A stretch of DNA of 64,000 bases from Halorubrum sp. CBA1229 (GTDB lineage Archaea > Halobacteriota > Halobacteria > Halobacteriales > Haloferacaceae): positions 992,001-1,056,000 of the forward strand of contig NZ_CP054585.1 of NCBI RefSeq assembly GCF_003721435.2, written 5' to 3'. Position 1 is the stretch's first letter; every line of letters begins with the position of its first letter. The position numbers were made by a program, and so were the translations under genes. Below, piece after piece: positions 14,764 to 59,790 of this stretch. The notes below the pieces were generated by a model. That model did not search any database and was not told the origin of the DNA. It saw nothing but the letters and a program-made list of their open reading frames with translations.

Positions 14764-14814
14764 ATCGAGATTCGGGTGTGGGAGATATTTATAAGTGGAA
14801 CCGTGAGGTGGTCA

Positions 14815-15120
14815 GCCATTTATAAGTAGTCGTTCGCAGATCGACGGCGAACACCTCCAAAGCCCCAGCCGCGACGACTCGCGCGGCTTGCTGCGCTCCT
14901 CAGTCTCTCGCGGTGCTCGCTCCCTTCGGTGCTTACTGCGCCGTGCGTCGTCCTCGCGGCTGCCCCTTTGAGTCCCGCCCCGCACAGCACCGCACCTCAC
15001 ACCTCCCCAGCCTCGTCGCTGGCGCCATTCGGCGCCAGCGACTCCCTCGCGCGTGCTGGCTCGCGGCCGCCGATGGCGGCCGCTCGCAGGCGCACGCCAC
15101 CGCAATTCCGTTTATAAACA
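14815..15120 (-). repeat. Dispersed structured non-coding element, copy 1
   Basis: This stretch between two convergent genes has no credible reading frame but shares ordered conserved blocks with 36478-36990. On the minus strand these are a TATA-like GTTTATAAAC (15109-15118), a 12-bp hairpin (15014-15041), a G-rich block ending in GGCTGGGGAGG, the block GGGACTCAAAGGGGCAG (within 14949-14983), and finally GGCTGGGGCTTTGGAGGTG (within 14849-14874). A further TTTATAA site closes the other side at 14818. It may be a transcribed RNA or a non-autonomous mobile unit. Confidence 0.6.
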
Positions 15121-32064: not shown

Positions 32065-32469
32065 CTACTCGCGTTGGTCCTCGACGTACTGTTTCAGCAC
32101 ATCCAACGACACCTGCCCCGTCGAGATGAGGCAGTAGGAGTCGTTCCAGAACGAGTCGCCCCACAGTTCGGTCTTCAGTTTATCCGCGTACTCGTTGCGG
32201 ATACGGCGAGCAGTCGCGCCCTTGACCGTGTTGATGAACTTCACGAGGTCCGTGGTTGGTTTCGCTCGGAACAGGATGTGTACGTGGTCGTCCTCTCCGT
32301 CGAGGTTCGTCAGTTCGACGCCGTAGTTGTCCGTGAACCCGCTGATGACCCCGCGAATGAATTGGGTTCGCTCCTCGGTTAGCACTCCGCGCCGATACTT
32401 CGTAGTGAGTATCAGGTGGTAGTGCAGGGAATACGTCGAGTGCGCTCCCGAATCGAGGTCGTATTCCAT
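32065..32469 (-). CDS. tnpA: IS200-type Y1 (HUH) transposase
   Basis: A 134-residue single-strand transposase. The HUH metal motif is DDHVHILF (His62-Val-His64) and the catalytic tyrosine is Tyr128 in VLKQYVEDQ. The N-terminal YSLHYHLILTTKYRRGVL is characteristic. It ends one base before the tnpB start, so both genes are probably on one transcript. It appears complete. Confidence 0.93.
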   Translation of the reverse strand: MEYDLDSGAHSTYSLHYHLILTTKYRRGVLTEERTQFIRGVISGFTDNYGVELTNLDGEDDHVHILFRAKPTTDLVKFINTVKGATARRIRNEYADKLKTELWGDSFWNDSYCLISTGQVSLDVLKQYVEDQRE

Positions 32470-36477: not shown

Positions 36478-36990
36478 TGAACACCGCCAAAGGCCCAGCC
36501 ACTCGGCGATACGTATCTGACTATTCCACGCTAAATTCCTCCAAAGCCCCAGCCGCGAGGACGGCGCACGCTCGCTGCGCGCTTCGGTCGTTCGCTTCGC
36601 TCACTCCCTGCGGTGTCGCCGGCGGCTCCGCCGCCGGCTGCCCGTGGCGCTACGCGCCACGCTGCCTACGTCGTCATCAGAACGCGAAGCGTTCTGATTG
36701 GCTCACGAGAGCGTTGCTCTCGTGAACGCCTGTGCCGTCCTCGCGACTGCCCCTTTGAGTCCCGCCCCGCTCCGCACGGCACCGCCGGAAGACGGTCCTG
36801 CTCGCTCACTACGTTCGCTTCGCAGGCTGCGACTTCCGTGCTCCCGCTCGCGTTGCTCGCGGGACCGCAGCCTCACGCCTCCCCAGCCTCGTCGCTGGCG
36901 GCTGGCGCCGCCAGCGACTCCCTCGCGCGCGCACCTCGCGCCCTGCGGGCGCTCGGCGGCACGCGCCGACCGCGTCAGTTTTATAAATGA
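36478..36990 (-). repeat. Dispersed structured non-coding element, copy 2
   Basis: Longer homologue of 14815-15120, again between convergent genes. Conserved blocks on the minus strand, in order, are the TATA-like ATTTATAAAA near 36980-36989, a 12-bp hairpin (36891-36918), GGCTGGGGAGG, GGGACTCAAAGGGGCAG (within 36736-36770) and GGCTGGGGCTTTGGAGG (within 36538-36560). A degenerate extra copy of the last block is at 36479-36500. Extra length comes from small perfect hairpins (36618-36638, 36644-36660, 36676-36698 and 36703-36725). No credible protein is encoded in 36364-37154. Confidence 0.6.
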
Positions 36991-58334: not shown

Positions 58335-58890
58335 GACTGACGTCCACAGTTCGTTTCCACTTTAATATCCCCTCCTTGGCAACAGCGGGTTTCGAGCCGT
58401 CATCTCTCTATTTTGCGTCCACTATGGCAGCGGCTGTGGTTGCCGAACAACAATAGCCGGCTAAACAGGTGTGTCCGTGACGGCCCGCCCCGCTCGCCGC
58501 TGCCGCCCTCCGCGTCGCTCGCGACCGACCATTCCGGGCGGGCTTCCGCTCCAGTAGGTGCGGGTCCTGCCGGGCTAAAGTGCATGTGCCCTCGACGCCA
58601 GCGCTTCACCCGTTCGGGTCCTGCGGACCTCGGCGAAGCCGACCGCGACGGACGTGGTTGCGTCGCGGCGAACGGGGAATGCGCTGGCCGCTCGCTCCGG
58701 GCGGGTCGCCGCGCGGGGCTGGTTGGGGCCACCGCATGCAGGCGCGCTCTCGCTCGCGCCCAGGAGGGCGCTCGCGAAGGCGCGAGCGAGAGCGCGCAGC
58801 TGGTTTTGTCGGTCGTTGTCGTCGGAAAAACGCGATGGTGGAGCATCGCGGAGTCGGCGCGTGAGCGCCTTCGGAATCAGGTCGATTCCA
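58335..58890. other. 556-bp GC-rich leader region before the ssDNA-binding gene
   Basis: No conserved protein is evident in either direction. The region is dense in GC-rich direct and inverted motifs, with a 19-bp perfect hairpin at 58742-58797. It may hold a regulatory RNA leader or replication-related site. Confidence 0.45.
58742..58797. repeat. 19-bp perfect inverted repeat upstream of the OB-fold gene
   Basis: Arms 58742-58760 and 58779-58797 are perfectly complementary (core GCGCTCTCGCTCGCGCC), with an 18-base loop. The hairpin ends 94 bases before the ATG of the OB-fold gene. Confidence 0.7.
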
Positions 58891-59790
58891 ATGTCTAGTA
58901 ACAACGCTAGCGGAAAGATCGTTTCGGTCGATGAACAGGCATTCGAGAACGCGGACGAGCAGGCGGTCGATGAAGACGGCTTCCCGGTCGTCGACGAGAC
59001 GCCAGAGTTCGAGGCGACAGTCGAGCAAGAGACGCAGGCGAAGGTGGATGCGAACCACCCAGACGGGATCGCTGACACGAGCAACGAGCGGATTCACGGT
59101 GTCACCCTCGAACAGGAGGAGCGCATTCGGGCCCGGGACGCCGAACTGGAGCATATCAGGGCCCAGGCCGAGCTGGGCACGCAGGATGATCGCGAGCAGC
59201 GCACTCGGGTGGTCGCCGCCCAAGAGAGCAAGCAACGTCGGCAGGAGTTCCAGAAGCGGGCCGCGAGCGTGGATCCGTGGGCGGACCCCGAGCGAAACGA
59301 TCCCCGAACGGAGCTCTCTCAGGATGAACTGGCGACGGTGAACACCGAGGCAGACCGACTCGCGACGCGAATGGATGGGTGGTCGCGCGCAGCGATCAGT
59401 CGACGCCTGGCCGAAGCAGTCTTGGACGGTACAGACACGACGAGTGCGGTTGTGCGGGTGTTCGAGGCGTTGCAGACGGCACCGGGACACGTGGTGCCAA
59501 TCGGGAAGCTCGACGAGGTGAATCGCAAAGAGGTGAGTATTGCGGGTCGTGTCAAGACCCTCTGGAGTCCCTCGCATCCAAGCATTGCTCAAGTCGGACT
59601 CATCGCGGACGAGACTGGGCAAACCCGGGTGACCATCTGGAAGGCCTCCGAGGCACCGTGGATCGCCGAGGGCGAGCACGTGCGCATTCACGGGGCTGCC
59701 CGGAACTGGTACGAGGGGCGCGTCTCCCTAGCCGTCACAGGGTGGAGCACCATCCACTTCCCCGAGCGCGGCCGCTGGTGGGAAGCGTAG
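58891..59790 (+). CDS. OB-fold single-stranded-DNA-binding protein (RPA-like) of the integrated element
   Basis: A 299-residue protein. Its first half is a charged, Glu/Gln/Arg-rich helical region (LEQEERIRARDAELEHIRAQ, ESKQRRQEFQKRAAS). The second half (about 205-299) is an OB-fold: KEVSIAGRVKTLWSPSHPSIAQVGLIADETGQTRVTIWKAS and a final IHGAARNWYEGRVSLAVTGW. This matches haloarchaeal RPA/SSB-like proteins common on plasmids. The ATG at 58891 begins MSSNNASGKIVSVDEQAFEN. An intrinsic-terminator-like hairpin follows at once. Confidence 0.85.
   Translation: MSSNNASGKIVSVDEQAFENADEQAVDEDGFPVVDETPEFEATVEQETQAKVDANHPDGIADTSNERIHGVTLEQEERIRARDAELEHIRAQAELGTQDDREQRTRVVAAQESKQRRQEFQKRAASVDPWADPERNDPRTELSQDELATVNTEADRLATRMDGWSRAAISRRLAEAVLDGTDTTSAVVRVFEALQTAPGHVVPIGKLDEVNRKEVSIAGRVKTLWSPSHPSIAQVGLIADETGQTRVTIWKASEAPWIAEGEHVRIHGAARNWYEGRVSLAVTGWSTIHFPERGRWWEA

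Follow-up and report, generated by a model that had tools for sequence, protein, structure and literature searches.

The dispersed repeats to which the element described here bears the closest likeness are the REP/REPIN systems, which are tied to RAYT (Bertels and Rainey 2011, PMC3116915), and the transposase-free PATEs, MITEs and SMRs of the haloarchaeon Haloquadratum walsbyi (PMC3119063). The PATEs and MITEs of Haloquadratum are defined by their termini and insert in a strain-specific manner; the PATEs lack terminal inverted repeats and carry, close to their ends, palindromes that are related to IS605-type transposons (PMC3119063). On the side of RNA, 22 conserved, unassigned intergenic sRNAs have been reported in Halobacteria (PMC7002113); compared by description, they resemble our element as conserved intergenic sequences in Halobacteria, and the part of that account open to comparison does not describe a multicopy repeat. 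With the structured RNAs of Rfam the element shares covarying helices, strand-specific wobble and conserved non-canonical motifs, whereas about 100 copies per genome would be unusual for a cis-regulatory RNA.

We analyzed a window of 64,000 nucleotides from Halorubrum sp. CBA1229 (NZ_CP054585.1, positions 992,001 to 1,056,000), in which a sequence-only reading had pointed out two copies of an ordered set of blocks and proposed either an RNA family or a non-autonomous mobile unit. The blocks are indeed common to both copies and form a three-hairpin fold (P1, P2 and P3) of the G-rich strand that has been conserved, at positions inherited across species divergence, while the hairpins themselves have been exchanged as independent cassettes. 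Of the two proposals, that of a structured-RNA-like family is borne out by covariation, strand-specific wobble, wide distribution and dispersal, but present-day mobility is not, given the shared sites and mobilisers that do not track the element. We give slightly better than even credence to the view that this is a dispersed, intergenic, strand-specific structured element of Halobacteriales, which functions as an RNA with a cellular role and whose hairpin cassettes are exchanged by ectopic gene conversion. In Rfam release 15, no family reached its gathering score with the window, with the element alone in E-value mode, or with 13 loci of other genera; the best match, veev_FSE, scored 23.7 bits against a cut-off of 55 and was on the wrong strand. 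Strings of the element's sequence were found nowhere in the searchable literature, and a prior account in subscription papers is possible. One of the commonest haloarchaeal non-coding elements, present in most genera and reaching about 100 copies, apparently has neither an Rfam entry nor an account in searchable papers.

Copy 1 is an intergenic element of about 300 nt on the minus strand of window positions 14819-15118, the minus strand being the G-rich one here. Read along the G-rich strand, a Halorubrum copy begins with TTTATAAA, usually 13-27 nt upstream of P1, followed by P1, GAGGGA, P2, GAGGCTGGGGAGG, a linker, GGGACTC-AAAG-GGG-CAG, the long P3 arm with its inner hairpin, CTG-GGG-CTTT-GGAGGTGTTC, a short spacer and TTTATAA. 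In copy 1 (all features on the minus strand), the TATA-like, palindromic TTTATAAA lies directly upstream of the element at 15111-15118, and P1 occupies approximately 15047-15102, where an inverted repeat (I2) forms a stem interrupted by a GAG/CGA internal loop (G.A, A.G); across 30 copies this hairpin varies yet stays self-complementary. The G-tract GAGGGA upstream of P2 (15043-15048) is conserved in the host-genome copies and in full-length copies of other genera, as is, among the copies, the G-tract CTGGGGAGG downstream of it (15002-15010). Between them, the P2 cassette at 15015-15042 is the 12-bp hairpin noted earlier, with a perfect stem (inverted repeat I3, 12 nt, 100% complementary), and P2 types recur and are interchangeable among copies. 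The P3 core arm (14844-14976) corresponds to positions 1-133 of R1, a covariance model of this arm built from 30 Halorubrum copies, and scores 142.1 bits. Its components are GGGACTC, the AAAG-GGG-CAG/CTG-GGG-CTTT pairing, a long covarying stem, an inner hairpin with tandem G.A pairs and GGAGGTGTTC. The 17-nt block GGGACTCAAAGGGGCAG (14960-14976), found by a motif search of the window, forms the 5' side of the base of P3 and contains a GGG of the GGGxGGG loop; the block GGCTGGGGCTTTGGAGGTG (14852-14870), placed by sequence and alignment of copies, forms the 3' side and begins a 57-nt unit that is closed by TTTATAA at 14819-14825. A second, degenerate tail unit (14788-14818) has its own terminal TTTATAA at 14788-14794. 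The GGCTGGGG..GGAGG motifs reported near both ends correspond to 14852-14870 and 15002-15010, but nothing supports the suggestion that GGAGGTG is a Shine-Dalgarno sequence: it is not followed by a start codon, and it forms one strand of the P3 helix or flanks that helix.

In copy 2, also on the minus strand, the P3 arm (36528-36763) is enlarged by nested additional hairpins; R1 matches 36528-36652 with 62.7 bits, and GGGACTCAAAGGGGCAG lies at 36747-36763. Its P2 hairpin, likewise with a 12-bp stem (inverted repeat I2), is at 36891-36918 and its 5' TTTATAAA at 36980-36987. Nested additional hairpins, for example of GGCGGC-TTT-GCCGCC types, are seen within P1 or P3 of some copies (L030, L254-L256 and window 36597-36730), as if hairpins themselves had been inserted there. 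As several copies are truncated or have lost P3, individual copies look dispensable, which weighs against the reading preferred below.

The shared core GGGACTCAAAGGGGCAG occurs twice in the window with at most three mismatches, against 0.10 expected, and the family proves far larger than these two copies. R1 has at least 99 matches at E<=0.01 in the host genome, this being a lower bound from the 150 candidates scored, and all are on the main chromosome contig (3,218,340 bases); the remaining 0.36-Mb contig has none, an outcome with a chance of about 2e-5 under an even spread. A blastn-type search of the same genome returned 40 places including the query, the other 39 being 76-86% identical, besides short tail units. 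Spacing along the chromosome has a gap CV of 1.15, inside the random range of 0.82-1.20, by which regular chromosomal spacing is rejected; orientation is 58/37 and forms no blocks. Exact core matches among named genome records are nearly all from Halorubrum, and R1 matches 50 of 51 other members of the genus and 83 of the 116 genomes searched overall. Within the class, 209 of the 291 good-quality genomes, from 59 of 77 genera, carry the core arm, and all 52 positives in a phylum-wide draw of 393 genomes belong to one order, Halobacteriales. Copies per genome reach 65-70 in other families and are few in others. Four Halorubrum genomes (G034, G042, G045 and G046) have no match or one, and their sister species have dozens. 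Outside Halorubrum the core reads GGGACTGAAAGGGGC, with P1 and P2 kept in some copies. Viral contigs gave no exact core match and phage records no blastn match.

The fold is supported by compensatory base changes. Among the 30 training copies, 98.4% of the alignment cells pair and both partners vary in 15 of the 27 pairs, with a covariation score of 0.333, as against 0.125 for shuffled and at most 0.063 for slid controls. As the copies used for training may make a model look too good, we also aligned 42 copies from plasmids and other genera that had no part in building it. Of the cells in this second alignment, 98.8% are paired across the 27 named pairs; both partners have changed in 21 of these pairs, and covariation reaches 0.650, compared with 0.164+-0.011 after shuffling and at most 0.053 after sliding. 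This alignment was fitted to R1, by which the absolute numbers lean towards the model; even so, they exceed the controls by a very wide margin. Copy 1 has a folding energy of -143 kcal/mol (z = -3.6). Haloarchaeal DNA is GC-rich, which speaks for a chance resemblance among GC palindromes; nevertheless, with 99 matches, a class-wide spread and covariation well above both kinds of control, that explanation is refuted and its residual probability is practically nil. Of the refuting conditions set with the sequence-only reading, neither that of just two copies nor that of a likeness confined to low-complexity GC palindromes holds.

In the inner hairpin, Watson-Crick pairs that covary alternate with nearly invariant tandem G.A/A.G pairs, and the GGGxGGG loop, set between AAAG/CUUU and CAG/CUG, is the same in every one of the 30 Halorubrum copies used for training and, class-wide, in 41-42 of the 42 others. 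A kink-turn (L7Ae) reading was tried on the sequence and set aside: the tandem G.A/A.G pairs are present and the three-nt loop is missing. G.T wobbles outnumber A.C mismatches by 27:4 and 42:9, wobble being tolerated on one strand only, and hence one particular strand folds. Such strand-specific wobble is what would be expected of an RNA or of single-stranded DNA of fixed polarity rather than of a cruciform. G.T wobble and sheared G.A pairs form in single-stranded DNA too and do not establish RNA over it; the strand most likely folds as RNA. Four conserved G-tracts flank P2 and P3, two of them missing in P3-only copies, and a quadruplex formed from them is possible; RNA quadruplexes have been reported in Haloferax (PMC12873603).

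The TTTATAA edges of the sequence-only reading, at 14819-14825 and 15111-15118, are real in copy 1 but are specific to Halorubrum copies and absent from other genera, hence not a family-wide trait. The same holds for the TATA-like box: a motif of this kind within 45 nt before P1 is found in 57 of 75 host-genome copies versus 2 of 300 control windows, whereas TTTATAAA, itself a palindrome, is missing from copies of other genera. The TTTATAAA box is perhaps a promoter in Halorubrum, and as such would place the start site within the 5' strand of P1. On the 3' side, a TATAA-type motif occurs in 36 of 75 copies, its commonest position being exactly 17 nt past the model end. The tail units of about 57 nt (GAGCGGCTGGGGCTTTGGAGG...TTTATAAAC) are repeats of the element's end; among 75 copies, 26 have no extra unit, 31 have one and 18 have two to four. 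These units, which resemble repeated 3' ends, together with the upstream TATA-like box, call to mind a SINE-like retro-element with 5'-truncated tail copies. We regard this as scarcely credible: the reverse transcriptase domain RVT_1 was found in 0 of 59 relatives, with control genomes positive, and the units of one array are often nearly identical, which slippage fits better.

Comparison across species shows that the copies largely stay in place. At the copy 1 site, about ten Halorubrum species have an element in the same orientation, with differing hairpins and tail units, and the site is without the element, or has a remnant only, where the neighbouring gene differs. The orthologous site of genome G029 (L204) carries the unrelated perfect hairpins GAGACGCCTTTGGCGTCTC and AGAATCCGTCGGATTCT instead of the element. 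In a single species pair, the host genome and its sister G035, about 25 of the 30 best sister copies match by their flanks copy-bearing sites of the host genome, and 23 clean orthologous pairs have identical orientation and flanks that are mostly 85-95% identical. At three sites without a full copy in the host genome, neither a clean empty site nor a target duplication was seen: two of them retain P1-P2 but have lost P3 by a cut from one GGG tract to another, and the third is occupied by another gene. The deletion of P3 in L341 and L348 runs exactly between G-tracts (GGTGGG|..CTTTGG), a pattern suggestive of slippage, or of excision, across the arm in its folded state.

These observations bear on the alternative of a non-autonomous transposable element, MITE- or PATE-like and still mobilised in trans by a transposase, with TTTATAA as its target or cut site. 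High copy number, intergenic location, palindromic parts, TTTATAA at both ends in Halorubrum, presence or absence at some sites and the scattered plasmid copies all speak for it; yet the sites shared with the sister species, the three sites just described, the absence of terminal inverted repeats (30 oriented copies), the missing TTTATAA in other genera and the many copy-rich genomes without Y1_Tnp, Y1 being the transposase family examined, make it doubtful. Unlike a MITE, the element thus has neither terminal inverted repeats nor, at the three sites, a target duplication; unlike the PATEs, it is conserved in its internal fold, occupies sites common to species and abounds in genomes without Y1_Tnp, the IS605-type feature compared.

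Y1_Tnp (PF01797) was not found in six copy-rich genomes (G002, G004, G005, G015, G018 and G027), and the same search did detect it in control genomes and other relatives. In the host genome a single such domain was found, at window 32074-32436 on the minus strand (G000:C1:1024074-1024436). Dependence on the mobilisers examined is not supported, as neither the Y1 transposase nor the reverse transcriptase tracks the element. A population of the REP/REPIN kind in archaea, relying on a Y1 transposase of the RAYT type, would share with our element its extragenic, hundred-copy, hairpin-based and long-lived character, and head-to-head cores about 35 bp apart do occur in G275 and G221, plus one pair in G297, as inverted doublets of certain haloarchaeal genera. 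Against it stand the six genomes without the transposase, arms and conserved non-canonical motifs that far exceed REP size, and the Halorubrum copies examined, which are single and form no inverted doublets; we therefore hold it to be very improbable. The element differs from REP/REPIN systems also in its length of about 300 nt with three hairpins, its conserved GGGxGGG and tandem GA motifs, and its swapped cassettes.

That swapping is seen when orthologues are compared hairpin by hairpin. The median P3 identity is 0.80 for orthologues versus 0.78 for non-orthologous copies. For P2, five of 22 orthologous pairs are at least 0.93 identical, as against 1.2% of cross pairs, and the remaining orthologous P2 hairpins are mostly of another type, often one recurring at different loci. 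This bimodality, P2 being either kept or replaced by another recurring type, tells against neutral saturation alone as the reason why orthologues differ. Among 57 host-genome copies the similarities of P1, P2 and P3 are uncorrelated (Mantel p = 0.55 for P2 versus P3), and in 68 pairs of copies that share P2 the P3 identity is 0.766 versus 0.762 overall, with P1 average too. The 30-base P2 cassettes common to unrelated copies cannot be chance. Given this sharing and the lack of correlation, the hairpins move independently between resident copies, and we read the pattern as cassette exchange among resident copies, rather than active hopping.

The copies are mostly intergenic. Copy 1 lies between convergent genes, as had been noted, but this is not general: of the 83 copies that could be classified by a crude codon-usage caller, whose training set covered about 62% of the window, 27 are flanked by convergent genes, 25 by genes both opposed to the element, 21 by genes both aligned with it and 10 by divergent genes. 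The earlier statement that copy 1 has no reading frame needs amending, as two 97-aa ORFs cross the region, running through the hairpins; nevertheless, they show no sign of being genes. A cis-acting element of adjacent genes, be it a transcription terminator, 3'-UTR stabiliser, riboswitch or promoter island, would suit the intergenic location, the stop codons often nearby, the TATA-like boxes at the edges and the seemingly under-used divergent gaps. However, with orientation so mixed, the element stands in no constant relation to the gene before or after it, and one complex fold at about 100 unrelated loci is unlike a leader, making such a role distinctly unlikely.

We return to the preferred reading of an RNA with exchangeable hairpins. 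Haloarchaea are polyploid and conversion-prone. In such a setting, we propose that the strand folds as an RNA that serves the cell by binding protein or by regulating at the RNA level, and whose transcription in Halorubrum perhaps begins at the TTTATAAA box; our best guess is that protein binding by the RNA is the selective force on the fold. The hairpins would be extruded during replication and their tips broken, for example by Mre11-Rad50-type hairpin cleavage, and the break would be repaired by short-tract ectopic gene conversion, with another copy serving as template through the conserved blocks. As an outcome, blocks would stay uniform and stems would be replaced. For this mechanism the proposal rests on the pattern of cassettes. 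The original spread would have required a mobilising step, now seemingly rare or lost. Possible, though we rather doubt it, is a domesticated hundred-copy system of structured RNA or single-stranded DNA whose fixed chromosomal copies exchange hairpin cassettes by hairpin-targeted ectopic recombination; in the cytoplasm, which is rich in potassium, the GGGxGGG loop may combine with the P2 G-tracts into an RNA G-quadruplex. If this is true, the element would stand for a kind of multicopy non-coding sequence that has no known mobiliser and undergoes fast concerted evolution of its own. The detailed fold is open to direct test, and its invariant non-canonical motifs hint at a partner, be it a protein or a ligand; knock-outs and RNA tests are feasible in relatives that are genetically tractable. 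Moreover, adjacent hairpins that are independent within 300 bp offer a natural system to measure ectopic gene conversion in polyploid archaea.

Copies are also scattered on plasmids. There, a short P3 variant of about 107 nt is found in several genera (CP007061, NZ_MN918442, NC_015667, CP002989 and NZ_CP098517; L329-L333), a few hundred bases upstream of a divergently oriented gene that encodes an OB-fold-like DNA-binding protein of about 290 aa. This protein was considered as a partner and rejected, its presence being mismatched with copy number (G035 is rich without the gene and G042 poor with it). Window 58480-58900 holds an OB-fold-like gene (from about 58891) and its spacer, without P3. 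An HNH-endonuclease gene often adjoins the plasmid OB-fold-like gene, and the spacer carries a long conserved hairpin.
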